Source: a virus. Taken from it: a DNA stretch of 64,000 nucleotides. Both the position numbers and the translations under genes were made by a program. Every line of letters begins with the position of its first letter. The first letter of the stretch is position 1. The DNA lies in the IMG/VR virus record IMGVR_UViG_3300021090_000013, positions 1 to 64,000 of that record; one strand, given 5' to 3'. Below the pieces are notes generated by a model, which saw only the letters and a program-made list of their open reading frames with translations, was not told where the DNA came from and ran no database searches. Below are positions 103-61,606 of the stretch, one piece after another.

Positions 103-519
103 ATGGCGCGCCCACGCAAGCCGACCGCCCTACGAGTGCTGACCGGAAAAGCCGGCCATCGCCCGCTCCCGAAGAATGAGCCGAAGCCTGAGTTAGGCGC
201 CGTGCCGCCGCCGTGGATGACGGCGCCGGGGGCCGTGGCTGAGTGGGACAGGATGGCTCCGCGCCTGCTCAAGCTGGGGCTGCTCACAGAGGTGGATGGC
301 GAGGCGCTGGCGTTGCTCTGCGGCCACCTGGCAGACGCTGGCGAGCAAATGCGCATGGCCCGGCCGGTGGACCCGCGGTTGACATCGGAGATCCGTCAGT
401 TCCTCGGGCAGTTCGGGCTCACGCCAGCATCACGGGCCAAGGTGACGAGCGCGAATCCGAAGGAAGACGTTGACCCGTTCGCAGCATGGAAGGTCCCGAG
501 TGGCGGCAAGAAAGGCTGA
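103..519 (+). CDS. Terminase small subunit, P27 family
   Basis: DNA-recognition subunit of the packaging motor, acting with the downstream large subunit. The 138 residues start with the P27-type opening (RPRKPTALRVLTGKAGHRPL), followed by the basic, proline-rich stretch and PPPWM. The helical middle (AEWDRMAPRLLKLGLLTEVDG) is also typical, and the C-terminus is the usual SxxxRxK-like region. It is slightly shorter than most family members. The start is the first ATG after a weak AAGG; the frame is open to the window edge, so the start is not certain. It overlaps the large subunit gene, as is normal for this pair. Confidence 0.85.
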   Translation: MARPRKPTALRVLTGKAGHRPLPKNEPKPELGAVPPPWMTAPGAVAEWDRMAPRLLKLGLLTEVDGEALALLCGHLADAGEQMRMARPVDPRLTSEIRQFLGQFGLTPASRAKVTSANPKEDVDPFAAWKVPSGGKKG

Positions 520-2263
520 CCAGACTACCGCCTACGCCCGTGGCGTGATCGCCGGGAAGATCCCCGCTGGCCGGTTGGTGATCCTCGCCTGCAAGCGCCA
601 CATCCGCGACCTCAAGGACGGGAAGCGGCGAGGGCTCGTGTGGGACCCTGGGGCGGCAGAGCGTGACATCGGGTTCTTTGCGAAGCTCTGTCACTACAAG
701 GGAGAGTGGGCGGGGAAGCCGCTGATCCTCTCTCCGTGGCAAGCGTTCATTGTCGGAAGCATCTTCGGCTGGAAGAACCGAGACGGGCTGCGCCGTTTCC
801 GAGAAGCCTATGAGGAGGTGCCGCGCAAGAACGGTAAGAGCACGAAGGACGCCGGCTTGGGAATCCGCCTCGCCTTCTTCGACGGCGAGCAAGGGGCCGA
901 GTGCTACTGCGCCGCGACCAAGAAGGACCAGGCGCGGATCATCTGGGGAGACGCGAAGCAGATGGTGCTTCGCACCCCGGCCCTTCGGAAGATGCTGCGC
1001 GTGTTCACCGGCAACCTATCATCCGAGGCGCTTGCGTCGAAGCTCGAGCCGCTTGGGGCCGACGAGGACACCATGGACGGTCTCAACGTGCATGCTGCGA
1101 TGATTGACGAGCTGCACGCGCACAAGACCTCGGGCGTTGTGGACGTGCTCAAGACCGCGACCGGATCGAGGCGCCAGCCACTCATCAAGTACGTCACGAC
1201 GGCCGGATACAACCGGGAGTCCATCTGTTGGAAGCTCCGAGACTACTCGGTCAAGGTGCTCGAGGGCTCGGTGGTAGATGACACCTTCTTTGCCTACATC
1301 GCCTGTGCCGACGAGGGCGACGACTACCGCGACCCGAAGACGTGGGCGAAAGCGAATCCAAATCTAGATGTATCCGTGAGCCGCACCGACCTCGCGCGCA
1401 AGGCAAAGCAGGCGGAGCACATGCCGGCGGCCCTCAACGCATTCTTGAGGCTGCACCTGAACGTCTGGACCGAACAAGCCGACCGCTGGGTAGATATGGA
1501 GGTATGGGACGGTTGCTCGGGTGCGGTCGACGAAGCCGCGCTCAGGGATCGTCACGCAGAGTGCTTCGGTGGCCTCGACATGGCGTCGGTGCGCGACCTG
1601 TCGGCGTTCGCTCTTGTCTTCCCCGACGAGGATGACGGCTTTGACGTGATCTGGAAGTTTTGGATTCCTCGCGAGAGCCTCGAACCAGGCAAGACTCACC
1701 GTAGCGAGCGGGAGAGATTACTCCTCCTGGGATGGGCGACACAGGGGTTCATCACGGTAACCGAGGGCAACGTCACCGACTACGACCTTGTCGAGCGCGA
1801 CATTTTCGAGGCGGCCGAGAGCTACCGAGTTCTAGAGATCGCGCATGACCGCTGGAACATCACTCAGCTCATCACGCATCTGCAAAACGAGTTCGGCACC
1901 GACGAGGATTCAGTGCCTCGCGTCATCGGGTTCGGTCAGGGCTTCCAGAGCATGAGCGCGCCGACCAAGGAGCTGGAGAAGCTACTCCTCGGTCGAAAGA
2001 TCCGGCACGGCGGGAACCCGGTAGCTCGATGGATGGCGGCCAACGTGGTCGTGCGCCAAGACCCGGCTGGCAACATGAAGCCCGACAAGGAGCGCTCAGC
2101 CGAGAAGATCGACGGCATCGTGGCGCTGGTGATGGCCCTGGGTCGTGCGATCACGCGGCCCACTGATGGCGAATCGGTCTATGACCAGCGCTTCACAGCG
2201 AATCGGGACCTCACGGAGAAAGGAAAGCAGGGGCCACCGCAGCCCCTAATCGACGCATGGTGA
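500..2263 (+). CDS. Terminase large subunit, HK97/P27-associated type
   Basis: ATPase-nuclease that pumps DNA into the prohead and cuts concatemers. The N-terminal ATPase domain shows a variant Walker A (EEVPRKNGKST) and a Walker B (AAMIDELHAHK). The C-terminal RNase H-fold nuclease has the expected acidic positions (GGLDMASVRDLSAF and a late DGIVALVMALG). GTG 500 is preferred: GGAAGG lies 7 bases upstream and the protein then starts just before the conserved TTAYARGVIAG. A TTG at 470 with its own AGGAAG is an alternative. At 587 residues the length is normal. It overlaps the small subunit gene by 20 bases. Confidence 0.93.
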   Translation: MAARKADQTTAYARGVIAGKIPAGRLVILACKRHIRDLKDGKRRGLVWDPGAAERDIGFFAKLCHYKGEWAGKPLILSPWQAFIVGSIFGWKNRDGLRRFREAYEEVPRKNGKSTKDAGLGIRLAFFDGEQGAECYCAATKKDQARIIWGDAKQMVLRTPALRKMLRVFTGNLSSEALASKLEPLGADEDTMDGLNVHAAMIDELHAHKTSGVVDVLKTATGSRRQPLIKYVTTAGYNRESICWKLRDYSVKVLEGSVVDDTFFAYIACADEGDDYRDPKTWAKANPNLDVSVSRTDLARKAKQAEHMPAALNAFLRLHLNVWTEQADRWVDMEVWDGCSGAVDEAALRDRHAECFGGLDMASVRDLSAFALVFPDEDDGFDVIWKFWIPRESLEPGKTHRSERERLLLLGWATQGFITVTEGNVTDYDLVERDIFEAAESYRVLEIAHDRWNITQLITHLQNEFGTDEDSVPRVIGFGQGFQSMSAPTKELEKLLLGRKIRHGGNPVARWMAANVVVRQDPAGNMKPDKERSAEKIDGIVALVMALGRAITRPTDGESVYDQRFTANRDLTEKGKQGPPQPLIDAW

Positions 2264-2412
2264 GACTCCAAGCCTCGGTTGTCGACCGTCTTGCCGTCCT
2301 CGCCGGTGCGGGGCTCGTCCTCTATGGCGTGTCCATGTGGTCACGACCAGCAGCCGTCATCCTCGCCGGGCTGTTCCTGTTGGCCGGCGCTCTATGGAGG
2401 ACTCGCCAGTGA
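2257..2412 (+). CDS. Small two-helix membrane protein between terminase and portal
   Basis: A 51-residue ORF starts inside the last codons of the large terminase (ATG overlapping its TGG-TGA end) and ends in a GTGA overlap with the portal start, so it is translationally coupled on both sides. It has two hydrophobic stretches (about residues 12-25 and 33-46) separated by SMWSRP. Small membrane proteins at this position are common in HK97-type phages; their role is unknown. No function is proposed. Confidence 0.6.
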   Translation: MVRLQASVVDRLAVLAGAGLVLYGVSMWSRPAAVILAGLFLLAGALWRTRQ

Positions 2413-3986
2413 CCAGCATGGTTTCGTGGCTTCTCGGTGTGCCGAAGGCGGGTGCTCTCGATGCGCTGGATGACCGGTACTATGAGCCGGCGAGTAGCCT
2501 CTCTCGTGCAGGCGTTCGGGTCTCCGCCGATTCGGCGATGAAGTCGTCTGCCGTTTACCGCTGCGTCTCGATCCTCGCGAACGTGCTGGCGATGTTTCCG
2601 AAGGCAATGTATGAGCACCTTGACCGAGGGCGTCGGCCGGCTCCAGACCATCCGCTCGACGAGATCATCAGCTTCCGCCCGAATCGCCGCCAGAACGCTT
2701 TCGTGTTCTGGCGCCAGGTCTGCTACCACCTGATGCTGCGCCAGAACGCGTTCGTCCAGATCATCCCCGGCGCCTCTGGCCGTGGTTGGGTTGGCGGGCT
2801 CGTCCCCCTGCACCCGGATCGCATCCGGGGACCAGAGGAGCTTCCAGACGGCTCCTTACGCTACCTATACCAGCGCCCGAACGGAGGACCTGCGGTTCCC
2901 ATGATCGGCGGAATCGACATCTGGCACCTACACGGCCTGAGTTCAGACGGGCTCAAGGGCCTGTCGATGCTCGACGTAGCCGACGACTCTATCGGTCTGT
3001 CCCTTGCGGCTGAGCGTCACGCGGCTCGGTTCTTCCAGCGCGGGGTGAAGCCGACCGGGATCTTGCAGCACGAGAAGACGCTCAAGGCCGAGACCGCGCG
3101 GGAGATGAGCGAATCGTTCGGGCGCGTCTACGGCGGCGAAGAGGGGACCGGTAAGGTTCCGGTCCTCTGGGAGGGGATGAAGTTCAACCCCATCTCGATG
3201 ACCTTGAAAGACGCCGAGTTCTTGGACTCGCGGAAGTTCTCGGTGTCTGAGATCGCTCGGTGGTTCGGCGTGCCGCCCCACATGGTTGGCGATGTCGAGC
3301 GCAGCACGTCTTGGGGAACCGGGATTGAGCAACAGGGGCTCCACTTCCTGATCTACTCTCTCCTGCCCTGGATCGAGTTGATCGAGCAGTCCATCCGGTT
3401 CACGCTCGTGGTGCAGCCCGACAAGTTCTACCCGAAGTTCAACGTCAACGCGATCTTGCGGATGGACGCGAAGGCGCAGGCCGACGTGTTCGCGATCTTG
3501 GTCGACAAGGGCATCCTCAACCCTAACGAGTGCCGCGAGCTGCTGGAGCGCAACCCGCGCAAGGGCGGCGACGAGTACGCGAAGCCAGGCGCCGCGCAAC
3601 CGCCTCCGGCGCCGTCCTTGCCCGATGCGATGCGTCCAATGGAGCCGGACTCTGACGAGGTTGACGCAGCCCGGGCCCTCGCAACCGCCAGCGCGATCGC
3701 GCACGCGCGGGCCCTGGAGCTACTCGACGAGGAGCGCCAGTCCCTCTCCCGGCTCGCCAAGGAGCACGCCAAGCAGGGCGAGGCGTTCCGGGCGGCAGCC
3801 GCTCGCTTCTACGGCCACTTTTCGGGCCGCGTCTCGGTGGCTATGGCCTGCGACAAGACCTCGGCCAAGGGCTGGTGTGAGACCAGGCGCGGCCTTGTGC
3901 TCTCGGATGGGATTGCCGGACTGACGGACCAGAACCAGGCGGCAGCGGCGCTCGTCGCCATTGCCCTGAATGGAGGGCCCGCATGA
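2409..3986 (+). CDS. Portal protein, HK97 family
   Basis: Forms the dodecameric ring at one capsid vertex through which DNA enters and to which the connector binds. The 525 residues carry the family core: SSAVYRCVSILANVLAMFP, then NRRQNAFVFWRQVCYHLMLR, then GVPPHMVGDVERSTSWG near residue 295. GTG 2409 is chosen over the in-frame ATG 2394 because GGAGG at 2397-2401 is correctly spaced for it and because it makes a GTGA overlap with the preceding small gene. The C-terminal 130 residues are rich in alanine and charge and less conserved, as usual. Confidence 0.93.
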   Translation: MTSMVSWLLGVPKAGALDALDDRYYEPASSLSRAGVRVSADSAMKSSAVYRCVSILANVLAMFPKAMYEHLDRGRRPAPDHPLDEIISFRPNRRQNAFVFWRQVCYHLMLRQNAFVQIIPGASGRGWVGGLVPLHPDRIRGPEELPDGSLRYLYQRPNGGPAVPMIGGIDIWHLHGLSSDGLKGLSMLDVADDSIGLSLAAERHAARFFQRGVKPTGILQHEKTLKAETAREMSESFGRVYGGEEGTGKVPVLWEGMKFNPISMTLKDAEFLDSRKFSVSEIARWFGVPPHMVGDVERSTSWGTGIEQQGLHFLIYSLLPWIELIEQSIRFTLVVQPDKFYPKFNVNAILRMDAKAQADVFAILVDKGILNPNECRELLERNPRKGGDEYAKPGAAQPPPAPSLPDAMRPMEPDSDEVDAARALATASAIAHARALELLDEERQSLSRLAKEHAKQGEAFRAAAARFYGHFSGRVSVAMACDKTSAKGWCETRRGLVLSDGIAGLTDQNQAAAALVAIALNGGPA

Positions 3987-4276
3987 ACGAGCGGATGACT
4001 GAGGCAGAGCTGTTGGAGGCCGAAGAGATAGTCAGGGCGGCCGAACATGATGCCGCTCCTCTCCGTCTGGAAATCCTTGATGTTGCAAAACAAGCGGTCG
4101 CCGAGGTGCGCCGGCTGCGGGGCCTACTCAAGCCTTTCTCCGGAAACGTAGGCTATGACACCTGCTGCATTGGCTGCGGCGACGCCATGCATGCAATGGG
4201 CGAGCCGGGACATAGCCCTGAGTGCCCATGGATACCACTGGAAGCCGAGGCGAGCGCGATCCGCGCTGAGGAGTGA
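3983..4276 (+). CDS. Small zinc-finger-like protein between portal and protease
   Basis: 97 residues, starting in an ATGA overlap with the portal gene. The N-terminal two thirds is an acidic helix (TEAELLEAEEIVRAAEHDA). The C-terminus has CCIGCGDAMHAMGEPGHSPECPW, a C-x2-C/H/C pattern that could bind one zinc ion. This C/H arrangement is often seen in small phage proteins of unknown function. Position inside the packaging-capsid operon is clear, but no head role is known. Confidence 0.7.
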   Translation: MNERMTEAELLEAEEIVRAAEHDAAPLRLEILDVAKQAVAEVRRLRGLLKPFSGNVGYDTCCIGCGDAMHAMGEPGHSPECPWIPLEAEASAIRAEE

Positions 4277-4280
4277 CGCC

Positions 4281-5258
4281 ATGTTGAGCCTGCTTCATGC
4301 CGTAGCTGGTCGCCCCTGGGCGATCCAGGCCGAGATAGCGTTCCACATCCGGGGCTTGCTGGCCAAGGAGGGGATCGCCGGCCTACGCCATCTCGCGGAG
4401 CTCAAGAGCGGCGTCCACGCCTTCGACGAGGACCGACCGCGCGCCGCCAGTCGCCAAGCGTTCATGGACACGGGCGGCACCGTGGCGGTCATCCCGGTCA
4501 TCGGTACGCTGACCCAGCGCGGAGACATGATCGGCAGCGCCCAGACGCGGTCGACCGCCGAGATCGCTGCCGAGGTGCGGGCGGCCGCTGCCGAGCCATC
4601 AGTCGACGGCATCTTGCTTGAGATCGACTCCCCGGGCGGGGAAGTGTTCGGCATCCCCGAAGCGTGGGCTTCGATACGCGAGTCCGGCCGGATGAAGCCG
4701 GTCGTAGCGCACGCGAACAGCATCGCGGCTTCAGCGGCTCTCTACCTGGCGAGCGCGGCCAATGAGTTCTGGATCACGCCCAGCGGCGAGGCGGGTAGCG
4801 TGGGCGTCTACGCGCTCCACGTGGACATGGGCAAGGCTCTGGAGAGCATGGGTGAAGCCTGGGACTTCATCGTGGCCTCCAAGAGCCCCTACAAGATCGA
4901 GGGCAACCCATCAGGCCCGCTCACCGACGAAGCCAGGGGATACCTCCAGCGGAACATCGACCGCTATATGGGCATGTTCCTGCGCGACCTCGCCCGCGGC
5001 CGCGGCGTGTCGGAGAAGCGCGTTGAAGCGGACTTCGGGGGCGGCCGGATGCTGAATCCAGCCCAGGCTGTCGCTGTGGGGATGGCTGATGGGGTGGCCA
5101 GCTTCGATCAAGCCGTCAGGCGATCGGCAGACCTCGGGCGCCATCGCGGAGGCGGCCCCCGGGCGGACCTTGCAGGGCCAGAACCGGTCGCGGAAGATCC
5201 TGCCGCTCTTGCGGCCTGGGCAGCTCTTGCCGGCGTGAAATTGGAGGGACTCGAATGA
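4281..5258 (+). CDS. Head maturation protease, S49 (SppA-like) family
   Basis: Serine-lysine protease expected to trim the scaffold-like N-terminus of the capsid protein. The 325 residues show ILLEIDSPGGEVFG (oxyanion region, about 111-124), SIAASAALYLASAA with the likely nucleophile Ser151, and SKSPYKIEGNP with the catalytic lysine (Lys201 or Lys205). ATG 4281 is chosen because GAGGAG precedes it; the longer open frame upstream overlaps the zinc-finger gene and lacks family similarity. It ends in an ATGA overlap with the next gene. Order portal-protease-capsid is standard for HK97-like phages. Confidence 0.92.
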   Translation: MLSLLHAVAGRPWAIQAEIAFHIRGLLAKEGIAGLRHLAELKSGVHAFDEDRPRAASRQAFMDTGGTVAVIPVIGTLTQRGDMIGSAQTRSTAEIAAEVRAAAAEPSVDGILLEIDSPGGEVFGIPEAWASIRESGRMKPVVAHANSIAASAALYLASAANEFWITPSGEAGSVGVYALHVDMGKALESMGEAWDFIVASKSPYKIEGNPSGPLTDEARGYLQRNIDRYMGMFLRDLARGRGVSEKRVEADFGGGRMLNPAQAVAVGMADGVASFDQAVRRSADLGRHRGGGPRADLAGPEPVAEDPAALAAWAALAGVKLEGLE

Positions 5259-5647
5259 GCGTACTTGTGGCAACCCCGCTTGAGGCCGCCGGTGTCAATC
5301 TCTGCACGACGCTGACCGGTAACGTCGACTCCACGAACACGATGGACCGCGGCTACACCCTCGGGGGCCCGTCCCTCCTGCGGGTAACCTCGACCATCGG
5401 GGCGGGGCCGACCGTGAAGTTCGACATCCAGGGCTCGATGGATGGTGTCGTGTTCTTCAACGTCCCCTATAGCCTGATCGCCACGCCGGAGACCTGGGTG
5501 GTGGCGCAGATCACGATCACGACGGCGGTCACTGCCTACTACGTCCTCAAGGGCAATGTGCCCTGGAAGTACCTCAAGACAGTGATGAGCCTGAACACGA
5601 ACGTGACTCTCACCGTGGACGCCTGGCCCACGTATTACAAGGGCTAA
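5255..5647 (+). CDS. Putative capsid-associated or decoration protein
   Basis: 130 residues, beta-rich and low in charge, with many T, V and S residues (for example TVKFDIQGSMDGVVFFNVPY). It overlaps the protease gene by ATGA and precedes the capsid gene. The composition and position suggest a small virion protein such as a head decoration subunit, but no family is recognised. The stop is followed by a promoter and structured leader, so it is the last gene of the first transcription unit. Confidence 0.6.
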   Translation: MSVLVATPLEAAGVNLCTTLTGNVDSTNTMDRGYTLGGPSLLRVTSTIGAGPTVKFDIQGSMDGVVFFNVPYSLIATPETWVVAQITITTAVTAYYVLKGNVPWKYLKTVMSLNTNVTLTVDAWPTYYKG

Positions 5648-5670
5648 GAATGGGGGGGCTTGACAGCCTA

Positions 5671-5679
5671 TGGTATAAT
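5671..5679 (+). promoter_or_regulatory. Extended -10 promoter upstream of capsid gene
   Basis: TGG followed by a perfect TATAAT (5674-5679) makes a strong extended -10 element. A TTGACA at 5660-5665 lies only 8 bases upstream of the hexamer, too close to act as a normal -35, so recognition is probably through the extended -10. The expected start of transcription is near 5686, in the intergenic region ahead of the structured leader and capsid gene. Confidence 0.65.
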
Positions 5680-5685
5680 CCTCAG

Positions 5686-5813
5686 TGACGTAGAAAGGGC
5701 TCCGGTCGCCTCAGCCTTCGGGCCTCTCCGACCGACCATCGCAGCACCGCGCCACTGGCGCCCCTGCTGTTTCGGCATCTGACGTTTTTCAGGTGCCGGC
5801 CAGGGGCGCTTTT
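5686..5813 (+). ncRNA. Structured leader or small RNA upstream of capsid gene
   Basis: The 127 bases from the predicted transcription start to the T-run hold no good ORF but strong secondary structure. One hairpin has CGGTCG pairing with CGACCG around 5703-5734 and encloses GCC-TTCG-GGC, a UUCG tetraloop. A second, long terminator-like double stem follows. Without read-through the product would be a short RNA; with read-through it is the 5' leader of the capsid mRNA. No Rfam family is recognised. Confidence 0.5.
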
Positions 5814-5820
5814 GCTTTTC
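5757..5820 (+). terminator. Rho-independent terminator or attenuator before capsid gene
   Basis: GCGCCCCTG (5758-5766) pairs perfectly with CAGGGGCGC (5801-5809). Inside it CGGCATCTG (5773-5781) pairs with CAGGTGCCG (5790-5798) with a single G-U. TTTTGCTTTT follows directly. This is a strong intrinsic terminator placed 25 bases before the capsid start codon, so capsid expression must come from read-through, antitermination or attenuation. Confidence 0.7.
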
Positions 5821-5844
5821 CGGGCCGGCGCATCAGGAGCTGCG

Positions 5845-7227
5845 ATGGAACGACTAAAGGAACTCGAAGTCGATCGCGAGGATCGGCGCGCCCAGGTGAA
5901 GGAGATCCTGACCGCGGCCGGCAAGGACAAGCGGACCTTGTCCGAGGACGAGCGGCAGAAGGCCGCGACCCTCACCAAGGAACTCGAGCAGATCGAAGCG
6001 ACGATCAAGCTCGAGGAGCAGACGCTCGACTGGAACCGGACCTCAGCCGTTGCGGTCGATCGCCCCGCCGGCGAGGTGACCAAGCCGTTCAAGCCCTACG
6101 CTGCGGGTCTCGGGGGTGCCAAGAACCCCTGGGGAGATTGCAGCAACGAACGCGGGCTGCAGATGGCATTCGGCAGCTTCTTGCAGGCCGTGGCGTCGTG
6201 CGCCAAGGGTGGCCCATCAGACCCCCGCCTCTCCATGATGCCGATGGCTGCCGCCAGCGGCCTCAACACGTCGGTGGGCTCCGAGGGCGGCTTCCTCGTC
6301 CGCACCGACTTCTCGACTGCGCTACTGGCGCGGGCGATGGGGGAATCAGTCCTAGCCAATCGCTGCACCACGATCGACATAGGGGACGGTTCGGATGGCA
6401 TCGAACTGCCCTACATCGACGAGACCAGCCGGGCGACCGGCTCTCGCTGGGGCGGCGTCCAGGTCTACCGGCGCGCCGAGGCGGACACCGTCACCGCGTC
6501 CAAGCCGAAGCTCGGAATGCTGGAGATTCGGCTGGAAGACCTGATGGGAATCTGCTACGCGACCGACCGCTCCCTGCGTGACGCGACCAGCCTCGGTCAG
6601 ATCATCCAGACGGCGTTCTCGTCCGAGTTCGCCTTCCGCGTCGACGACGAGATCATCCGTGGTTCTGGCGCCGGGCAGTGCCAGGGCCTGCTGTCCTCGG
6701 GGGCCCTCGTGAGCCAGGCAAAGGAAACGGTCCCCGCCCAGCTCGCGGACACGTTCATCACCGAGAACGCGCTGAAGATGCGTTCGAGGATGCCCGCCAG
6801 GCTCCGCAGCGACGGCGCATGGTACATCAACATGGAGTTGGAACCGCAACTCCCGATGATGACCGTCAAGGTTCTCAACGTGGCTGGCACCGAGTGGGTC
6901 GGCGGAGGCGCTCCGATCTACATGCCGGCGAACGGTCTCGCTGGCCAGCAGCACGACACGCTCTTTGGGAAGCCGATCATTCCCATCGAGCAGTGCGCGG
7001 CCATCGGAGACAAGGGTGACGTCTTCTTCCTCGCCCTCCGCGAATATCTGCTCATCCGCAAGGGTGCGCTGGAGACGGCGGAATCCATCCACGTGCGCTT
7101 TCTCTACGGGGAGAACACGTTCCGCTTCACCTATCGAATCAACGGGGCTCCGGCCTGGAAGACCAGCCTGGCTCCCTACAAGGGCACGCTGGCCCTCAGC
7201 CCCTTCGTCACACTCGACGCGCGGTAA
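5845..7227 (+). CDS. Major capsid protein, HK97 fold
   Basis: 460 residues. The N-terminal ~110 residues are charged and coiled-coil-like (the delta domain that acts as an internal scaffold and is removed by the S49 protease). The mature domain begins near the SEGGFLVRTDFS segment. Typical HK97-family landmarks follow: TDRSLRDATSLGQIIQTAFS, the DDEIIRGSGAGQCQGLL turn, and GKPIIPIEQCAAIGDKGDV near the C-terminus. ATG 5845 is chosen because it has AGGAG 6 bases upstream; an in-frame TTG at 5812 lies inside the terminator T-run and is unlikely. Confidence 0.93.
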   Translation: MERLKELEVDREDRRAQVKEILTAAGKDKRTLSEDERQKAATLTKELEQIEATIKLEEQTLDWNRTSAVAVDRPAGEVTKPFKPYAAGLGGAKNPWGDCSNERGLQMAFGSFLQAVASCAKGGPSDPRLSMMPMAAASGLNTSVGSEGGFLVRTDFSTALLARAMGESVLANRCTTIDIGDGSDGIELPYIDETSRATGSRWGGVQVYRRAEADTVTASKPKLGMLEIRLEDLMGICYATDRSLRDATSLGQIIQTAFSSEFAFRVDDEIIRGSGAGQCQGLLSSGALVSQAKETVPAQLADTFITENALKMRSRMPARLRSDGAWYINMELEPQLPMMTVKVLNVAGTEWVGGGAPIYMPANGLAGQQHDTLFGKPIIPIEQCAAIGDKGDVFFLALREYLLIRKGALETAESIHVRFLYGENTFRFTYRINGAPAWKTSLAPYKGTLALSPFVTLDAR

Positions 7228-7239
7228 GGAGCAAAGGTC

Positions 7240-7728
7240 ATGTCCCATCTCTGCATTCCACAGGACGCCGTACCGTTCTCGCTCCTCCCGCCGGCAGCCG
7301 ATGCCGCTGGGCGGACCTCGGTCTACAAGAGCCTCAAGGGCGCTGTCAAGGCGTGGATCGTCGTCTATATCAACCAGGGGGCCGCGAACACCGTCCTCCT
7401 GAGCCCGATGCAGGCGCTGAACGTGTCCGCCGGTTCAGCCATTGCCTGCCGGGCCTGCCGCATCTACTCGAAGCTCACTGCGGCGACGGTGGACTTCACG
7501 CAGGACACCGAGGCCACCACCTACACCACGGACGCCGGAACCGACGCCAAGGTGATCATCTTCGAGATCGACCCGAACAAGAGCCTGACCCCCGAACACG
7601 CCACCGGCGTCTACGACTGCGTCGCTGTGTCGACTGGAGCCAGCGCCGCCGCCAACATCACCTCGGCGATGCTCTGGATTCAGCCGAAGCACCAGGGCAC
7701 CGGGATCACCAACGTTCTGGCTGACTAG
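7240..7728 (+). CDS. Putative virion protein downstream of capsid
   Basis: 162 residues with a clear start (GGAGCAAAGGTC before ATG). It is beta-rich, with many alanines and threonines and few charges, resembling small structural or decoration proteins. Its place right after the capsid gene supports a head role. No family is recognised. Confidence 0.6.
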   Translation: MSHLCIPQDAVPFSLLPPAADAAGRTSVYKSLKGAVKAWIVVYINQGAANTVLLSPMQALNVSAGSAIACRACRIYSKLTAATVDFTQDTEATTYTTDAGTDAKVIIFEIDPNKSLTPEHATGVYDCVAVSTGASAAANITSAMLWIQPKHQGTGITNVLAD

Positions 7729-7748
7729 GCGGGGGTTCGTGACAAGGC

Positions 7749-7784
7749 GCTCCCGCGCGTGGGTTAAGGCTCTCGCGCGGGGGC
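7749..7784 (+). other. Intercistronic hairpin
   Basis: GCTCCCGCGCG (7749-7759) pairs with CGCGCGGGGGC (7774-7784), 11 base pairs with one G-U, around a 14-base loop. No T-run follows, so it is not a standard terminator; it may stabilise the capsid mRNA 3' end or mark a processing site. Confidence 0.5.
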
Positions 7785-7807
7785 GGCATCGCAAGAGGAG
7801 ATGAGCG

Positions 7808-8032
7808 ATGAAGGTTCGGATTCTGAGCGGTAGTCAGGCCGGTGCCGTCGTCGAGCAAGAGCAGACCGAGGCCGAGTCCAACATCTCGACCGGATTCGCC
7901 GAGGCCGTGACGGACGGCTTCGTCGAGTGGGGACCTGGCCCTGGGCTCCCGGTGCTGCTCCATCAGGACCAGGTCATTCCAGCCGAAGCAGAGCCCGAGA
8001 AGAAGCCCGAGAAGGCGAAGCACGGACGGTAG
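7808..8032 (+). CDS. Small head protein of unknown function
   Basis: 74 residues, starting after AAGAGGAGATGAGCG. The first half is a compact beta-type segment (MKVRILSGSQAGAVVEQEQ); the last 20 residues are a charged tail with EPEKKPEKAKHGR. Genes of this size often sit between capsid and connector in HK97-like phages. No function is recognised. Confidence 0.55.
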   Translation: MKVRILSGSQAGAVVEQEQTEAESNISTGFAEAVTDGFVEWGPGPGLPVLLHQDQVIPAEAEPEKKPEKAKHGR

Positions 8033-8034
8033 CT

Positions 8035-9738: not shown

Positions 9739-9741
9739 CAC

Positions 9742-52975: not shown

Positions 52976-52982
52976 GCCCACC

Positions 52983-53309
52983 GTGGGCGACCTGAGGCCG
53001 GAGTTCGAAGCCGCGTCGGCTCCATTCGGGGTCGACGCGGTGGTGACTCCGCCCGGCGGATCCCCGGTGGAGACGAGAGTCATCTGGCTACCGCCGATCA
53101 CCGTGGAGCACCCGACCGGCACGGAGCTGCGCCGTGCAGAGCCCAAACGCGTTCTTGCGCTTCCCCTCGACGGCCTCGGCGAGGTGCCGCGCGGGACGAT
53201 CGTGACGGCCCCGGAGTATGAAGGGGCCGAAGCGAGCGACTGGAAGATCGACGAAGCCGAGCGCGTCGACTTCGACCACTACCGGGCCACAGTCTTGCCG
53301 GCGGGGTAG
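52983..53309 (+). CDS. Head-tail connector, gpFII-like
   Basis: 108 residues from GTG. A small beta-barrel protein with G-V-D-A-V-V-T-P-P-G-G-S-P near the front and LDGLGEVPRGTIVTAP, W-K-I-D-E-A-E-R-V-D near the end, as in FII-type head-tail attachment proteins. Position after the capsid gene is right for this role. Confidence 0.7.
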   Translation: MGDLRPEFEAASAPFGVDAVVTPPGGSPVETRVIWLPPITVEHPTGTELRRAEPKRVLALPLDGLGEVPRGTIVTAPEYEGAEASDWKIDEAERVDFDHYRATVLPAG

Positions 53310-53312
53310 GAC

Positions 53313-53762
53313 ATGCCCAGTACACGCGAAGCGGCGATCAGCGAGCTGAGGGACCGGCTTGAGGCCATCGCCCAAGCCAACGGCTTCGGCACCGACGCCG
53401 GGGCGCTGATCTTCCTCGGCGAGTCCCCGACCCTGGGGCCCGACGATCCGACCGCGGCGATCGCCATCGACGTCCAGGAGGACATCCCCAGCTTTCAGGG
53501 CGAGCACGTAGTAGTCACCGTCCCCGTCGACGTGCAGGCCCTGGTGAAGGCCGACGCTGACGACCCCTGGATGACGGTCGAGGCCATCGTCACGGACATC
53601 AAGACCGCCGTCGAGACCGATCGCGACCTGGGCGGCACCTTGATCGCTCGCGGCCTCATGCGGGGGACCGTGCGCCCGCTCGATCGCGAGCCCGGCAGCC
53701 AGTACGTGGGGGCCGCGGTGCAGTACCGGCTCCTCATGAAAGAGAGCTGGGGGAGCCCGTAA
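53313..53762 (+). CDS. Tail terminator/completion protein (gpU-like)
   Basis: 149 residues. Pattern: AAISELRDRLEAIAQANGFG, D-D-P-T-A-A-I-A-I-D-V-Q, VVVTVPVDVQALVKADADDPW and M-T-V-E-A-I-V-T-D-I-K, fitting the minor tail/tail completion group of lambda-type phages. It overlaps no neighbour but the next gene starts within one base of its stop. Confidence 0.7.
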   Translation: MPSTREAAISELRDRLEAIAQANGFGTDAGALIFLGESPTLGPDDPTAAIAIDVQEDIPSFQGEHVVVTVPVDVQALVKADADDPWMTVEAIVTDIKTAVETDRDLGGTLIARGLMRGTVRPLDREPGSQYVGAAVQYRLLMKESWGSP

Positions 53763-54299
53763 ATGGTCACCATCCGCCTCGACAACGCAGACATCAAGGC
53801 TGGGCTCGCGTCCATGCGCGCGAAGTTTCCCCAGGCTGTCCGGCGTGCGCTCAAGCGCGCCGGCACCAGCGGCCGGGCCGAAATGGCGAGAGTGATCGCC
53901 GCGGACACCGGGCTCCCATCCACTCGCGTGAAGAGGGAGATCACCGTCAGGAGCGACGACGTCTCGATGGCGCTGACGACGGCGGGCTTCCGGATTCCGC
54001 TACTCGACTTCCAAGCGCGGGGGCCGGAGCCGTCCCGTGGGCGCGGCCGGGGCGTGTCGTATCGGGCCAAGTCCGGCCGCGTCCAGCTCCCGCACGCGTT
54101 CATCGCGACGATGGCCAGCGGCCACCGGGGAGTGTTCCAGCGGTCGGAGCTTTCGCTCTCCCACTCGTCCATCAGAGAACTGAAGGGGCCATCCATCGCG
54201 CACGTCTTCGAGGTCCTCGCCCCGCAAGGAATCGCAGCCGCCAGCGAGTCGTTCATGAAGAACGTCAAGAGCGAAATCAAATTCGCCATGACCAGGTAA
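53763..54299 (+). CDS. Minor tail protein, gpZ-like
   Basis: 178 residues. The sequence FPQAVRRALKRAGTSGRAEMAR, then the LPSTRVKREITV block and the late PLLDFQARG and HAFIATMASGHRGVFQR, marks the gpZ family of tail completion proteins. In lambda gpZ positions the tape measure/DNA end for injection. Confidence 0.85.
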   Translation: MVTIRLDNADIKAGLASMRAKFPQAVRRALKRAGTSGRAEMARVIAADTGLPSTRVKREITVRSDDVSMALTTAGFRIPLLDFQARGPEPSRGRGRGVSYRAKSGRVQLPHAFIATMASGHRGVFQRSELSLSHSSIRELKGPSIAHVFEVLAPQGIAAASESFMKNVKSEIKFAMTR

Positions 54300-54310
54300 G
54301 GAGGAAGCCC

Positions 54311-54919
54311 GTGCCTCAACCTTTCGAGATCGTTGCTCAGCCCTTCACTTTGTGGGTGGGCGACGTCGGCGACGTCTTCCCCACGATCGACGAGGATCCC
54401 GGCGCGGGGTGGACCAAGATCGGAACCTCCGGCGACCTCAACTACACCGAGGATGGCGTGACGATCACGCACAACCAGACGGTGGAGAAGTTCCGCGCCC
54501 TCGGCAGCACCGGTCCGCGCAAGGCGTTCCGCACGGAAGAGGAGCTGCACATCACCCTCTCTGTCGCTGACGTCTCGCTCGAGCAGTACGCCCAGGCCCT
54601 GAACGACAACACCGTCACCACCGAGCCGCCAGACACCGGGACGGCGGGTTCCAAGAAGCTCGGCCTCTCCCGCGGCCTGAGCGTGGCGCAGCATGCGCTC
54701 CTCATCCGCGGCGCCGCTGCGTCTCCCTACGGCGAGGGGTGGGTCGCGCAGTACGAGGTCCCGGTCGTCGTCCAGGTCGGTGAGCCAGAGGTCGTCTACG
54801 TCAAGGGCGAGCCCGCCGCGCTGGCGCTGGAGTTCGAGGCGCTCGAGGACCCGGACGCCGTGAGCGATGACGAGCGCTTCGGCCGCCTGATCGTGCAGAA
54901 CACCGAGCCCGGGACGTAG
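54311..54919 (+). CDS. Major tail tube protein (module B)
   Basis: 202 residues from GTG with AGGAGG upstream. Tube features: WTKIGTSGDLNYTEDGVTIT, TVEKFRALGSTGPRKAFRTEEELHITLSVADVSLEQ and a C-terminal beta half. A different subfamily from the 145-residue tube protein of module A. Confidence 0.8.
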   Translation: MPQPFEIVAQPFTLWVGDVGDVFPTIDEDPGAGWTKIGTSGDLNYTEDGVTITHNQTVEKFRALGSTGPRKAFRTEEELHITLSVADVSLEQYAQALNDNTVTTEPPDTGTAGSKKLGLSRGLSVAQHALLIRGAAASPYGEGWVAQYEVPVVVQVGEPEVVYVKGEPAALALEFEALEDPDAVSDDERFGRLIVQNTEPGT

Positions 54920-55123
54920 GTGGGGGGCTTGCCCGGCGATCAGGTGGACGCGTTGCGTCGCGAGATCGCGTCGCACAAGTCCGCGATCCGCTGGCACCGG
55001 TCGGCCCTCCAACGTGCCGCCGAAGCGCTGGCCAGGCTCCAGCTCAGCGGCACCGGCATCAAACCAGTCTTCAAAGGCGAAGGGAAAACCCCATGGCCAA
55101 TCTCCTCAACCTCGACACCCTGA
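54920..55123 (+). CDS. Small coiled-coil protein after tail tube
   Basis: 67 residues from GTG directly after the tube stop. LRREIASHKSAIRWHRSALQ and ALARLQLS form a basic helical hairpin of a kind seen near tail genes in other phages. It overlaps the chaperone gene by 31 bases; the overlapped tail is not conserved-looking. Confidence 0.5.
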   Translation: MGGLPGDQVDALRREIASHKSAIRWHRSALQRAAEALARLQLSGTGIKPVFKGEGKTPWPISSTSTP

Positions 55124-55476
55124 CCGAACGGAACACCGTCACGGTCGACGGCGTGCCATACGACCTCATCAATCCAGGCCAACTCTCGATCCTGGACCAA
55201 CACCGCGTTTTGAAGTGGGGAGCACGCGTCCAGGAGCTCCACGCAACCGTGGAGAACCTCTCCGATGCGGCGATCACGGAGATGGGGGAACTCCTGGACC
55301 GCTTCTGCCGGCTCGTGCTGCCGGCGCCTCCAGAGGTCCACGACAGGGTCTCCGACAACCAACGGCTGAAGCTGATGTCGGTTTTTACCGAACTCCTGCG
55401 GGGGGAGACTCCGGCGCCCGCGGGGGCAAGCGCCGCGCCGGTCGCCGACGAGACGTCGACTGGGGAGAGCAAATAG
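55093..55476 (+). CDS. Tail assembly chaperone, short form (module B)
   Basis: 127 residues. Reads VDGVPYDLINPGQLSILDQHRVLKWGAR, followed by a helical part and a low-complexity end (APAGASAAPVADETSTGESK), the general build of G-type tail chaperones. It sits between tail tube and tape measure. The downstream frame encodes a T-like domain that is probably added by frameshift. Confidence 0.75.
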   Translation: MANLLNLDTLTERNTVTVDGVPYDLINPGQLSILDQHRVLKWGARVQELHATVENLSDAAITEMGELLDRFCRLVLPAPPEVHDRVSDNQRLKLMSVFTELLRGETPAPAGASAAPVADETSTGESK

Positions 55477-55748
55477 CGCGCCTGGTGCGCTTCTACGGGG
55501 GAAATCCGATGACCTGGCTGGCCGAGACACCGACGTGCGTGGTCAACGCGCACCTTGCGATGCTCGGCCGGCTCACGGCCGAGGACCGACTTGCCGCCGC
55601 CATGGCCTCCGGCGCGGGAAGGTTCATGAAGCCGGCGCCCATCCGCAGCCAGATCGCAGCATGGAACAGGGCCGCGCAACGCGGCGACGGCAGCAAGGGC
55701 GGCTCTGGCGTCCCCCGGGGCACGGGCATCAAGGTCGTGAAGCGGTGA
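55404..55748 (+). CDS. Tail chaperone T-like extension in -1 frame (module B)
   Basis: The -1 frame stays open from within the short chaperone to 55748 and encodes DWGEQIARLVRFYGGNPMTW then VVNAHLAMLGRLTAEDRLAA, a T-like helical domain. No canonical X-XXY-YYZ heptamer is in register; a run of six Gs (55400-55405) is the only obvious slip candidate. An internal ATG (55509, after GGGGGAAA) could start the T domain separately. The exact junction is not fixed. Confidence 0.6.
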   Translation, partial: GDSGARGGKRRAGRRRDVDWGEQIARLVRFYGGNPMTWLAETPTCVVNAHLAMLGRLTAEDRLAAAMASGAGRFMKPAPIRSQIAAWNRAAQRGDGSKGGSGVPRGTGIKVVKR

Positions 55749-56356
55749 AGGTCTGCAAGAAACGCGGCCATCAATATTCCGCAGAGCGCAGGCAGTGTCC
55801 TGTTTGCCGGCTACTTTCTCGGCGCACCTCAGAAGCCGGTAGGCGCGAGCAGATCCGCGTCCAGAAACGGACATGGGATGCCAATCGTGAGAAAAGGAAA
55901 GCCTCTGCTCGCAGGAATTACCTCTCCCATCGCGAGGCTTGGGCGGAAAGGACTCGCAACCGGAGATCGGCCAACCTGGAAGCTTATCTGGCAAATTGCC
56001 GCTCCTATCAACAAGCCCATCGAGAACGCCACAACGAGCACGTGGCCAAATACCAGAAGGCCCATCCTGAAAAGCACGCCGAGCGCGAGGCGCGACGGCG
56101 CGCCCGAAAGCGCGCCTCGTTGATCGAACCATTCTCGTGGGTCGAGTGGTGCGCAGTGGTTGACTTCTACGGTGGGCTTTGTGCCTACTGCGCCCAACGT
56201 CCGTGGGAGCACAAAGAGCACGTCGTGCCGCTAGCTCGTGGCGGTGCGCATGCCCTCTGGAACCTCGTCCCATCATGCAAGCGTTGCAACTACCGAAAAC
56301 ACACTAAGACCTGGGCGCCGCTCAAGCGCCATCCAGCGATGGCGGAGGCTGCGTAA
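55745..56356 (+). CDS. HNH homing endonuclease
   Basis: 203 residues from GTG overlapping the chaperone stop. N-terminal zinc knuckle (CKKRGHQYSAERRQCPVC), a long basic middle with arginine/histidine helices, and an HNH nuclease: GLCAYCAQRPW, HVVPLARGGAHALWNLVPSC, KRCNYRKHTKTW. The G+C content is lower than around it. A free-standing mobile endonuclease inserted between chaperone and tape measure. Confidence 0.88.
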   Translation: MKVCKKRGHQYSAERRQCPVCRLLSRRTSEAGRREQIRVQKRTWDANREKRKASARRNYLSHREAWAERTRNRRSANLEAYLANCRSYQQAHRERHNEHVAKYQKAHPEKHAEREARRRARKRASLIEPFSWVEWCAVVDFYGGLCAYCAQRPWEHKEHVVPLARGGAHALWNLVPSCKRCNYRKHTKTWAPLKRHPAMAEAA

Positions 56357-56357
56357 G

Positions 56358-58781
56358 ATGTCCGAACGGCTCGCCCGCGGCGTCATCGAGATCGCGATCG
56401 ACGACAAGGACGTCCGGGCCGGCCTCGCCCGCGTGACCGGCGCCTCCGACAGCGCGGCGCACTCGGTCGCCGGCATCAGCGACGGGATGAGGACCTCCTT
56501 CGGGGCGGTGGCCACCGTCCTGGGCGGAGCGGTCACAGCCATCGCGGGAATCACCACCGGAATCGTGGCCCTGGGCATCCACGGGTCTGACGTTGCCGAC
56601 GTCCAGGAAGCCTTCTCCGGGCTCTCGGAGGGGATGGGCTCCACCGCAGACGTGATGCTGGGCGTGCTTCAGGAAGGGACCCAGGGCACCATCTCGAACT
56701 TCGACCTCATGAAGATGTCGAATGCGGCCCTCGGAAGCGGGCTCATCACCTCTTCCGAGAGCATGGCCACGCTGGCGGCTGGGGCGAAGCTGCTCGCAGA
56801 TAGCACCGGAGGCGATACCGCCGAAGCCTTCGACACCTTGACCACGGCGATGGCAAGTGGCCGCACGGCCGCCCTCAAGCACCTGGGCATCTTCGTCGAC
56901 AGCAAGGTGGCGGTCGAGGACTACCGCAAGTCCACGGGCCACCTCACCGGCGAGCTGACTGACGGCCAGCGTGCGACGGCGCTCAGCGAGGCCGCCCTGC
57001 GGGCGCTCCGAAAGCAGGTCGACGAGAACGGGATCTCCGTAAAGGACTTCTCCGACAACGTCGCCCGCGTCAAGGTCGCCGTCCAAAACTGGACCGACAG
57101 CCTGGCCGTCGCCATTGCCAAGTCCCCAGTCTTGTCCGCCGGGATGGGGGTGCTGGGCACGGCCATCACGAACGCCTTCGGCTCGAACCAGCAAGCGCAA
57201 ACGCAAGCCCTCGCGCGTCATGTCGGGAGCTTCGCCATCGGCATAGTGAACACGGGCATCGTCCTTGGCACGTTCGCCTCGGTAGCCAATGCCGTCTTCT
57301 CCGGGGTCCGGGTCGTCGTGTTGTCCGTCCTCGAAACCTTCGTGGTCCTCGCCACCGGTATCGTCGGAATCATCAATGAGCTTGTCCACGGGGCCAGCAC
57401 AATCCCGGGGTTCAGCCTTGCCCTGGGCGGAGTGGAGGCATCGACTACCGCGGCGACACTCGCGCTGGATGAGATGGCGCACGGGCTGACCGAGCAGATC
57501 GGAGAGGCGGCGAAGGGAGTCGCCGGCAACAACGAGCTCGGCCAGAAGATCACCGCGACCACCGGCACCTTCATGCTCATGCGGGACGCGATGGTCAAGG
57601 CCCAGACCGAGCAGCTCAAGGTGACCGCGACGGCCCCGCACCCGGCGATCAAGAAGGTGGGCGACGAGGCCGGGCTCACGGCCGCGCAGATGCTGGCGCT
57701 GGCCGAGGCCGAGCGCACCGCCACAGATCGCGCCTTTGCGATGAACCAAACGCTTGAGGCCAAGGGACAGGAGCTTCAAGACAACCTGACGGCGTCGACT
57801 CTTAGCGGCGTGGATGCGCGGCTCTTTCAGATCAATCGAGAGCGCGAAGCCGCCCTGGCGAGCCTGGCGCAGTACGCGCGCTCCTACCCGGTGTGGTACG
57901 CGGCGCAAGTCCTCGCGGTGCAACTGACCTACGGCAACATGACGGCGGCCGCGCAGGGCCACTTCACCACCGTGAAACAGGCTGCCGAGGCCGCCGGTTT
58001 CGCGTTGCGATCAACACTCCAGGCCACGTCCGCCAACGCCACGACCCTCTACGCCGACATGCTCGCAAGTGGGCAATTCACCTACGCCCAGCTCGTCGCG
58101 GCCGGCCAGGCATCAGCCAATGCCCAGCAGTTGGCTAACGGCGGGACGGCGCTGACTCATGATGAGCAATTGCGAGAGACGGCCCGAATCGCGGCCGAGG
58201 CATACGCAGCGATCACGAGAGCTGCTGTAGCCTCGGACGCCGAGATCGAGCGGGCCCACAGGGCATCGGCCGACGCCCAAAAGGCGGTGGACGAGGCCGT
58301 GCTCAGGGCCCGACTCGGCCATGCAGCAATGGCCCTCGACGCCGCCTCCTCAATGATCGGCTCCATCTTCTCGCACAACAAGTCGACGGCGATCGCGATG
58401 GCCTTGATCGACACCGCGTCGGCCATCGTCAAAGCCATCGCTGCGACCCCCTTGCCCTGGGGCCTGATCCCGGCCGCGGCGGCCGCTGCCATGGGCGCCG
58501 CCCAGATCGCGACGATTCGGAACACGAACCCGGGCCACGCCCTAGGCACGCCGCGGCTCGACTTCGCCGACTTCGGCTCGGAGTCCTTCCAGCCGCTGCA
58601 CAACCAGGAGGCCGTCATCCCCCGTGGCGGCGGACACCTGTTGGCCGGCGAGATCGCTGACTCCATGGGTGGTAGCGCCGAGCTGGGGGCCAAGCTCGAT
58701 CGAATCGCGGACCTCCTCGAACGACAGCCAGCCGAGATGCGCAAGGCCTACCGCAACGCGTTCCTGCTGGACACGGCCTGA
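56358..58781 (+). CDS. Tape measure protein, module B
   Basis: 807 residues, ATG with GGAGG upstream. Hydrophobic helix pairs near 45-75 (VATVLGGAVTAIAGITTGIV) and 300-370 (FAIGIVNTGIVLGTFASVAN; VVVLSVLETFVVLATGIVGI), alanine-rich coiled coils, and a late IAMALIDTASAIVKAIAATP and AAAAAMGAAQIATIRNTNPG that match the end of many tape measures. Shorter than the module A protein, so the tail should be shorter. Confidence 0.9.
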   Translation: MSERLARGVIEIAIDDKDVRAGLARVTGASDSAAHSVAGISDGMRTSFGAVATVLGGAVTAIAGITTGIVALGIHGSDVADVQEAFSGLSEGMGSTADVMLGVLQEGTQGTISNFDLMKMSNAALGSGLITSSESMATLAAGAKLLADSTGGDTAEAFDTLTTAMASGRTAALKHLGIFVDSKVAVEDYRKSTGHLTGELTDGQRATALSEAALRALRKQVDENGISVKDFSDNVARVKVAVQNWTDSLAVAIAKSPVLSAGMGVLGTAITNAFGSNQQAQTQALARHVGSFAIGIVNTGIVLGTFASVANAVFSGVRVVVLSVLETFVVLATGIVGIINELVHGASTIPGFSLALGGVEASTTAATLALDEMAHGLTEQIGEAAKGVAGNNELGQKITATTGTFMLMRDAMVKAQTEQLKVTATAPHPAIKKVGDEAGLTAAQMLALAEAERTATDRAFAMNQTLEAKGQELQDNLTASTLSGVDARLFQINREREAALASLAQYARSYPVWYAAQVLAVQLTYGNMTAAAQGHFTTVKQAAEAAGFALRSTLQATSANATTLYADMLASGQFTYAQLVAAGQASANAQQLANGGTALTHDEQLRETARIAAEAYAAITRAAVASDAEIERAHRASADAQKAVDEAVLRARLGHAAMALDAASSMIGSIFSHNKSTAIAMALIDTASAIVKAIAATPLPWGLIPAAAAAAMGAAQIATIRNTNPGHALGTPRLDFADFGSESFQPLHNQEAVIPRGGGHLLAGEIADSMGGSAELGAKLDRIADLLERQPAEMRKAYRNAFLLDTA

Positions 58782-60373
58782 TGGGCGAGACCGTCACGAT
58801 CGTTCCGCGCGTGGAGATGATGTTCGGCTCGGACTGGGTTGACGTGTCCGACGACGTCGTGTCCCAGGTCGAGGCCGCGTGGGGCATCCACGGCGCCAAT
58901 CCGAAGCAGCGCATCGCGGACCCTGGCACCATGCGTTTCCAGCTCGACAACTCCAGCCAGAACAGCGGTGGCGTGCGCGGCTATTACACCATCGGGCATC
59001 CCGACGCCCGCGCGGGGTTCGACGTCAAGACGCCGGTCCGATTCGTGCTGCACAACGACCTGCTCGGGGACAAGGTGCGGTGGGTGGGCACCATCGAGGG
59101 CGCGAAGCCGGGCGCCGGAGTCAAGGACCAAACGGTCGACGTGTCCTGCGTCGACTGGCTGGAGGAGGCCGCCCGGGCGAAGATCAGCGGTCTGGGCGTC
59201 CAGGTCGACATCCAATCCGACGTCCTCTTCCAGCTCCTCATCGACGCGGCGGACACGCCTCCGCCAGGCGGCACGCTGGTCGGGACCGGTTCCGACGTCT
59301 ACGAATACGCCCTCGACAACGTCCAGGACGAGACGACGACACTGATCGAGGCCTTGAACAAGCTCCTGCTTAGCGAGTTCGGGCTTTCCTACGTGTCGGC
59401 CGGCGTTGGGGTGTTCGAGGGCCGGCGGCTTCGCAGCGGCGGTGGCGGCGTGCAGCTCGCGCTGGACGAGGACGAGAACCTCATCACTCTGTCCACGGTG
59501 AACGGGAGAGACGAGGTAATCAACCACGTCCTGGTGTCCGTCCACCCGCGCCGCACGGACCCTGTCTATGCGGTCCTCTTCAACCTCGGCTCCTCTCTCG
59601 ATATCGTGCGCGGGACGGAGATCACAATCAGTTGTCCCTACCGCGACCAGAACCAGCAGGCCCAGCGCGTGGGCGGCCTCGACATGCAGGACCCGGATGC
59701 CGGCGAGGGCGACTACTCCTTCAACGCCGCCGAGGACGGGTCGGGGAAGGACCTCACGGAGCAACTGACCGTGACGGCGGTCTTCGGCGGGAACTCCGCA
59801 GCGGTGACCATCGCCAACAACGGGCCCAACGACGGCTTCGTCCCTCCGAACGGGCTGAAGCTGCGCGGGATCGGCCTATACGACTTCGAGCCTGTCATCG
59901 CGGACCGTTCGGACGTCGACAGCATCCTGGCCTACGGAGAGTGCCCGCTGGGCTATGACATGCCCTACCAGAGTTCGCCGACGAACGCGGGCGACCTGGC
60001 GCTCTTCATCCTCGCGCTGAACAAGACGGCTCGCGTGCGCGCCCAGAAGGTGACGTTCATCGCCAACTGGAGCTACACGGAGTGCGAGCAGGCGTTCAAC
60101 CTCGAGATCTCCAACCGCGTGTCTGTGACCTCGGCGCCCTCAGGGCTCGCCGCCGAGCCGTACTTCGTCAACGGCTTCCGGATGGTCGCGCACATGAGCG
60201 GCCTGGTGACCGTGACGTTAGACCTGGCGCCGACGGACACAGCCGAGTATTGGCAGCTCGAGGTGGACGGCAGGACCGAGCTCGACGAGACGACGGTGCT
60301 CGGCTACGGGCTGTTCACCGCCGGCTGGATCCTCAACAGCTCAGAGCTTGGGTCTCAGACGTTTTTGAACTGA
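58781..60373 (+). CDS. Tail hub/baseplate protein (module B)
   Basis: 530 residues, TGATG overlap. Homologous to the second part of the module A hub (15232-17850): both share an early beta domain with F/W-x-L/M-D-N-S-S/T, a D-W-L/M-E/D-E-A-A block, the G-G-L/M-D-M motif, and a nearby run with N-A-A/Q-E-D-G. The module B version lacks the two lectin-like domains. It probably carries the fibre-like proteins encoded next. Confidence 0.7.
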   Translation: MGETVTIVPRVEMMFGSDWVDVSDDVVSQVEAAWGIHGANPKQRIADPGTMRFQLDNSSQNSGGVRGYYTIGHPDARAGFDVKTPVRFVLHNDLLGDKVRWVGTIEGAKPGAGVKDQTVDVSCVDWLEEAARAKISGLGVQVDIQSDVLFQLLIDAADTPPPGGTLVGTGSDVYEYALDNVQDETTTLIEALNKLLLSEFGLSYVSAGVGVFEGRRLRSGGGGVQLALDEDENLITLSTVNGRDEVINHVLVSVHPRRTDPVYAVLFNLGSSLDIVRGTEITISCPYRDQNQQAQRVGGLDMQDPDAGEGDYSFNAAEDGSGKDLTEQLTVTAVFGGNSAAVTIANNGPNDGFVPPNGLKLRGIGLYDFEPVIADRSDVDSILAYGECPLGYDMPYQSSPTNAGDLALFILALNKTARVRAQKVTFIANWSYTECEQAFNLEISNRVSVTSAPSGLAAEPYFVNGFRMVAHMSGLVTVTLDLAPTDTAEYWQLEVDGRTELDETTVLGYGLFTAGWILNSSELGSQTFLN

Positions 60374-60380
60374 GGGTGCT

Positions 60381-60665
60381 ATGGCTTGGACCGCACCAAG
60401 ATCTTGGGCTCAGGGCCAACTCGTCGAGGCTGCCGATCTGAACGAGCAGGTGCGGGACAACCTCGCACACCTGAAGTTGCTCGTGAACGACGACGGCAAG
60501 ATCCCGATCCTAAGTGACACCTATCTAGCCGATCTCTCGGGAGCGAATCTCACAGGAGTCGCCAAGATCGCCGCGAATAACGACTTCACGGGGGTAAACA
60601 ATTTTGGCTTTGGCATAGGTGCTCGCCTGATCCTTCCGACCGGTTCCGATCGATGGGCGACATGA
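60381..60665 (+). CDS. Small fibre-like protein with attachment motif
   Basis: 94 residues. Begins AWTAPRSWAQGQLVEAADLN followed by E-Q-V-R-D-N-L, the attachment motif shared with the next gene and with 18231. The rest (AANNDFTGVNNFGFGIG) resembles the following protein's next segment, so the two arose by duplication. Ends in ATGA overlap with the repeat protein. Confidence 0.65.
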   Translation: MAWTAPRSWAQGQLVEAADLNEQVRDNLAHLKLLVNDDGKIPILSDTYLADLSGANLTGVAKIAANNDFTGVNNFGFGIGARLILPTGSDRWAT

Positions 60666-61606
60666 GCTGGACGACGCCGCGCACATGGGTCGACGGGGAA
60701 GTGACCACGGCGGCTCAGTTCGATGCCCACATTCGCGACAACCTAACGGTGCTGAAGGTCACACGCAACGCCGAGGGGCGGCTGATAGAACTCTCTAGCA
60801 CGACCATTGAGGACCTCACCGCACCCGATAAAGGCATGGCGGGGGTTGGGAGTAACAACAACTTCACGGGCGGGTCGACGAAGTTCAGCGGAGCCGGAAG
60901 GTTGGTTCTTCCCGTCGGTGCGGACAAATACGTGTCATACCCCTTCGGCCTTCGTTCGGGATTCTGGGTCGAGGGTGACTATCTGCACCACGTCCAGAGC
61001 GACCAGACGACAGAATGGCATTATCTCGGCGAGTACGTATCGACGCCAGCGGGCGCAGTGCCAGGCTCTATCTGGGTCGAGGGCAATTACCTCCACTACA
61101 TCGACGCCGACGGCGACGAGCGGCGGTGTCTCTCGGCCGGCGTAACGGGACACGCCGACGCGGCTGCGGTCGGCGGCTCGACATGGGTCGAGACGTTCGT
61201 TCACTGGATCCGTGAAGCCGGGGCCCTGGAATGCCCGGGACATGCCGACGTCGCCCATGCGGACGGGTCCGAGCACAACGACGGTCACGGGGACCTCGCG
61301 CATGCGGACTCGCACGCGGACTCCGGCCATGCGGACTCGCACACGGATGGAGCGCACGCCGACGAGCACTTCGATGTTGCGCACGCCGACGACCATGACG
61401 ACCACGGCGACACGCTCGACACGCCCAACCACGCCGACGAGCACTTCGATGTTGCGCACGGTGACGTGCACGTGGACTACCACTTCGACACGCATGCCGA
61501 CGAACCGCATAGCGACGACCACAACGACTCGCACACCGACTGGCATTTCGACCACGAGGATTATTCCGACTCCCCGACGCTGAACCAGCCAACGGTGGTT
61601 GTGTGA
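60662..61606 (+). CDS. Tail tip protein with His-Asp repeats
   Basis: 314 residues; ATG 60662 (ATGA overlap) preferred over ATG 60653. Residues 1-30 are the fibre attachment motif (SWTTPRTWVDGEVTTAAQFD, then R-D-N-L). Residues ~100-190 hold three W-V-E-G/T-x-Y/F-x-H units typical of phage fibre shafts. Residues ~193-305 are dominated by H-A-D, H-x-D and D-x-H units: about 24 histidines and over 30 aspartates. Such a segment should bind divalent metals. It ends Y-S-D-S-P-T-L-N-Q-P-T-V-V-V. The next gene is a radical SAM enzyme started in GTGA overlap. Confidence 0.75.
   Translation: MSWTTPRTWVDGEVTTAAQFDAHIRDNLTVLKVTRNAEGRLIELSSTTIEDLTAPDKGMAGVGSNNNFTGGSTKFSGAGRLVLPVGADKYVSYPFGLRSGFWVEGDYLHHVQSDQTTEWHYLGEYVSTPAGAVPGSIWVEGNYLHYIDADGDERRCLSAGVTGHADAAAVGGSTWVETFVHWIREAGALECPGHADVAHADGSEHNDGHGDLAHADSHADSGHADSHTDGAHADEHFDVAHADDHDDHGDTLDTPNHADEHFDVAHGDVHVDYHFDTHADEPHSDDHNDSHTDWHFDHEDYSDSPTLNQPTVVV
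61238..61575 (+). repeat. His-Asp repeat region
   Basis: Codes for irregular H-x-D repeats. At DNA level a 31-base unit (start CACGCCGACGAGCACTTCGA) occurs exactly twice, at 61355-61385 and 61430-61460, and shorter GCGGACTCGCAC units repeat around 61300-61340. Recent duplications within the array are therefore visible. Confidence 0.8.

Follow-up and report, generated by a model that had tools for sequence, protein, structure and literature searches.

The results indicated that the IMG/VR virus record IMGVR_UViG_3300021090_000013 is, with high probability, a chimeric metagenomic contig, in which the sequence of an incomplete phage (phage A) appears to have been fused to that of a circular one (phage B) inside a YqaJ/RecE-type exonuclease gene that is nearly identical in the two. 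This reading was derived from comparisons at the sequence level. The window, that is, the whole stretch of DNA analysed, consisted of bases 1-64000 of the 73,294-bp record, and bases 60001-73294 were also fetched. Genes were called with our own script, and their start sites are approximate. It was the rest of the record past the window, up to position 73,294, that accounted for the double virion set. Both virion sets are real and derive, most likely, from two different related phages; they almost certainly do not represent one virus with two shells. The double set is very probably an artefact of assembly and not a novel system. We know of no phage with two full virion sets, and chimeras are far commoner than double-virion phages, which sets the prior in favour of a chimera.

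The preliminary description of this DNA had reported two virion gene sets, and matches to PHROGs and Pfam confirmed both of them at the coordinates originally given (Table 1). In module A, the small terminase subunit (TerS) matched phrog_83 (1e-28), the large subunit (TerL) phrog_9 (2.5e-171), the portal phrog_12, the major head protein phrog_10 and the protease the S49 family (PF01343, 5e-25). Matches were also found for the connectors, the tail terminator, the major tail protein and the tape measure. The TerL, portal, protease, major head protein and connectors correspond to the HK97-type head gene set, and the S49-type protease differs from that set only by ordinary variation. In module B, the Nu1-like TerS matched phrog_57, the GpA-type TerL phrog_15 (9e-204), the gpW-like adaptor phrog_2545, the portal phrog_21, the ClpP-type protease PF00574 (3e-28), the decoration protein phrog_49 and the major head protein phrog_29; neck and major tail proteins were matched as well. 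The tape measure of module B was assigned from a weak PHROGs match (E 0.00075) together with its size and position. Module B thus resembles the lambda-type head gene set, with a Nu1/A-type terminase, gpW-like adaptor, portal, protease and gpD- and gpE-like proteins in lambda order, but it contains extra genes between TerL and the adaptor, and its tail proteins match known families weakly. The TerL proteins of A and B are not of one family (phrog_9 and phrog_15, respectively).

Table 1. Coordinates of the features discussed in the text (positions in the record).
Feature	Position	Strand	Content or assignment	Basis
Virion module A	103..19356	+	TerS, TerL, portal, S49 protease, major head protein, connectors, tail tube, tape measure, tail proteins	PHROGs and Pfam
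Phage A early-gene start	20089..22385	+	HTH protein, ParB-like protein, excisionase-like HTH protein, RNA ligase	Self-comparison, gene families
YqaJ/RecE-type exonuclease gene	22385..23338	+	Gene holding the probable join	phrog_434 1.6e-47; PF09588 2e-14
127-bp exact repeat	22412..22538	+	Putative assembly-graph vertex joining A and B	Same sequence as 73168-73294, where the record ends
Single-copy early, recombination and lysis region	22539..41313	+	Assigned to the phage B loop	Gene families; order exonuclease - g35 - RuvC - terminase kept in G001
RuvC-type resolvase	33842-34369		Within the single-copy region	
Endolysin	34733-35242		Within the single-copy region	
Virion module B	41658..60373 (and beyond)	+	Nu1-like TerS, GpA-type TerL, adaptor, portal, ClpP-type protease, gpD-like and gpE-like head proteins, neck, tail tube, probable tape measure, tail protein	PHROGs and Pfam; relative G001

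The shape of the record was revealed by its exact repeats. Among all exact repeats of at least 30 bp, the longest was 127 bp, and the next longest was 64 bp. The last mismatch before the 127-bp repeat lies at 22411, and the second copy runs to the end of the record. One copy is therefore internal, which gives the record the form of a lasso with a tail (1-22411) and a loop (22412-73167) of 50,756 bp. The contig end thus matches an internal stretch across exactly one assembler k, the pattern by which chimeric contigs from a k-mer graph are recognised. With metaSPAdes, 127 is often chosen as the largest k (as in PMC10914622), and the same work (COBRA) has reported that de Bruijn assemblers, including metaSPAdes, leave end overlaps of maxK at path branches. 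The authors of CheckV observed that the terminal repeats of virus contigs cluster at k values used by assemblers (55, 77 and 99 among them; PMC8116208). Chimeras accounted for less than 5% of contigs of at least 10 kb in simulated viromes (PMC5610896). On this reading, phage B would be the loop, closing on itself as a circle, and phage A, incomplete and sharing the 127-mer, would be the tail.

A self-comparison of the record further revealed that the early-gene start of phage A (20089-22385) is partly duplicated, in diverged form, at 69098-73144, beyond the window; the early genes themselves, at 20138-22388, have their second copy at 69147-73144. Three blocks recur in unchanged order and orientation: 20089-20415 and 69098-69439 (90% DNA identity), 21080-21391 and 71076-71387 (84%), and 22386-22538 and 73142-73294 (98%). 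At the protein level, the copies of the early genes (g25/g93, g26/g94 and g29/g97) were 85-90% identical, and the exonuclease start was 98% identical. Each virion set is therefore followed by its own version of a common early-gene start leading into the YqaJ/RecE-type exonuclease, which is the pattern expected from two homologous genomes. The preliminary description had placed a single lysis region and a single early region between the modules; this held only for the DNA after 22.4 kb, which is single-copy, since the A-side early genes have a diverged second copy beyond the window. Likewise, the junctions proposed there, at 19.3-20.2 and 41.2-41.6 kb, were not supported, and the join more likely lies within the exonuclease gene, at 22386-22538. 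Within the tail, 1-22.4 kb, no endolysin, lysis or replication gene was recognised, and one virion set plus an early-gene start lacking a recognised endolysin or replication gene is as expected of a truncated genome.

On this evidence, we propose how the record may have arisen. Two related phages, with hosts that probably overlapped, would have been present in one sample, and their genomes would have been near-identical at the start of the YqaJ/RecE-type exonuclease gene. In the assembly graph, presumably built with k = 127 as judged from the repeat length, two paths would have entered one vertex (22412-22538), namely that of the incomplete phage A (1-22411) and that from the end of the phage B loop. 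The assembler, possibly metaSPAdes, would have passed from A into B, circled the 50,756-bp genome of B once and halted on reaching the vertex again, so that a physical molecule joining A and B probably never existed. Chimeric viral contigs joined at shared k-mers have been described (PMC5610896; COBRA, PMC10914622), and these likewise involve two related genomes, a locally identical stretch, and an end of exactly k bases that recurs inside the contig. The present record differs from them in that the second genome was apparently walked fully round, and in that the repeat, with one copy inside the contig, is not flagged as terminal.

Further searches were carried out on both parts. A megablast of 1-22400 against phage records gave no match. 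IMG/VR was scanned for exact copies of two short sequences, a 32-mer at the B version of the repeat and a 23-mer from the duplicated block; nothing was returned (these scans may omit the record itself), and the continuation of phage A was not recovered. Single-protein searches of IMG/VR with the exonuclease, g35 and the DUF6551 protein yielded no relatives, and a scan of genome contigs detected distant terminase relatives only, with 28-36% identity. In composition, codon usage and tetranucleotides, A and B were not separated.

One relative, the 50,270-bp record IMGVR_UViG_3300044260_000061 (G001), contains one virion set. It shares with phage B the order exonuclease, early region, TerS/TerL, head and tail, and across its packaging and head proteins the identity to module B is 45-75%. 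Compared with module A, the tail tube proteins of G001 were 39-48% identical and part of its tape measure 36%. None of the A head genes was found in G001, save for a 28% protease match that fell on its own ClpP-type protease, and its left 11.6 kb had protein matches to neither A nor B. G001 is thus a mosaic, in which B-like head and packaging genes are followed by tail tube proteins and a stretch of tape measure that are A-like, and these phages swap modules. Among 20 related IMG/VR records, many of which are fragments, the A-type terminase was found in 12, the B-type in 8, and both together in none. The single virion set of G001 fits a chimera, as does the absence of terminase pairs among the 20 records, which, given the fragments among them, serves as supporting evidence only.

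Four explanations had been listed earlier without ranking, namely adjacent prophages, a chimeric assembly, a phage with a capsid-bearing satellite, and a hybrid genome; the results described above favoured the chimeric assembly. If two related prophages lay in tandem in one bacterial chromosome, with the contig halting where the repeated exonuclease gene occurs for the second time, the two halves would share orientation and gene order and would carry diverged copies of the early-gene start, as is observed. However, no match to Phage_integrase (PF00589) or Resolvase (PF00239) was detected in the 73-kb record, although the controls were positive; this search covered the two major families (tyrosine and serine), and an integrase of another type is conceivable. 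In addition, no tRNA was found in the window, no bacterial or host genes were recognised, and the repeat sits inside a coding gene with a length of exactly an assembler k. We therefore regard tandem prophages as unsupported and very unlikely.

Homologous recombination in the exonuclease gene could also have produced a physical cointegrate, that is, a hybrid chromosome of A and B with two complete unrelated virion sets, perhaps both expressed. Phages carrying such recombination enzymes do recombine. A single crossover in this gene would yield identical sequence, the two phages share near-identical DNA and exchange modules, and both virion sets are intact on one record. Nevertheless, such a hybrid is not needed to account for the terminal 127-bp repeat and the duplicated early block, and the relatives carry single virion sets. 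A chromosome of at least 73 kb, compared with about 50 kb for the related genome, would presumably be difficult to package, and we consider the hybrid very unlikely indeed. The association of phage B with a satellite A that forms its own capsids and borrows tails would agree with the terminase, portal, protease and capsid of A, and with the lack of recognised replication and lysis genes in A. Module A, however, carries a tail terminator, a major tail protein, a tape measure and further tail proteins, and tail-stealing satellites lack such tail genes, which makes this association extremely improbable. A capsid-forming satellite of the cf-PICI type, which has capsid and packaging genes without tail genes, was rejected on the same grounds.

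Since assembly is the most likely source of the double virion set, the set is biologically unimportant, and the record is mainly of interest as a warning. A screen for identical contig ends misses a repeat that is internal at one end, so the record would count as a single oversized phage; such chimeras would be caught by checking whether the k-mer at a contig end occurs again within that contig. If the loop is confirmed, phage B probably represents a complete genome of 50,756 bp.

In the loop lie genes for the exonuclease, a HerA/AAA-like ATPase, the RuvC-type resolvase and the endolysin, together with one virion set, a second early-gene start and accessory genes. In its early region, a 582-aa ATPase (29784-31532) weakly matched both HerA/AAA and a terminase-like family, and its position argues against a third terminase. 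Two internal duplications were observed in the loop, namely g39/g45 (27456-27740 and 31529-31807; 66% amino acid identity) in the early region, and g65/g66 (45235-45888 and 46691-47308; 48%) between TerL and the adaptor. Upstream of module B, a phage protein with a PAS-domain match (37832-38455; E 5.5e-06) was found, which is unusual in a phage. Between the tail genes of phage B and the early block, at 61603-64028 of the record, a radical SAM protein is followed by a protein with a methyltransferase domain; these are possibly accessory genes for the modification of glycans or small molecules. Past the window, two HNH genes lie on the minus strand, one encoding an HNH endonuclease with a NUMOD3 motif (L004:4526-5176, where L004 is the record piece 60001-73294) and the other a short HNH-like fragment (L004:8243-8467), and both are probable homing endonucleases.
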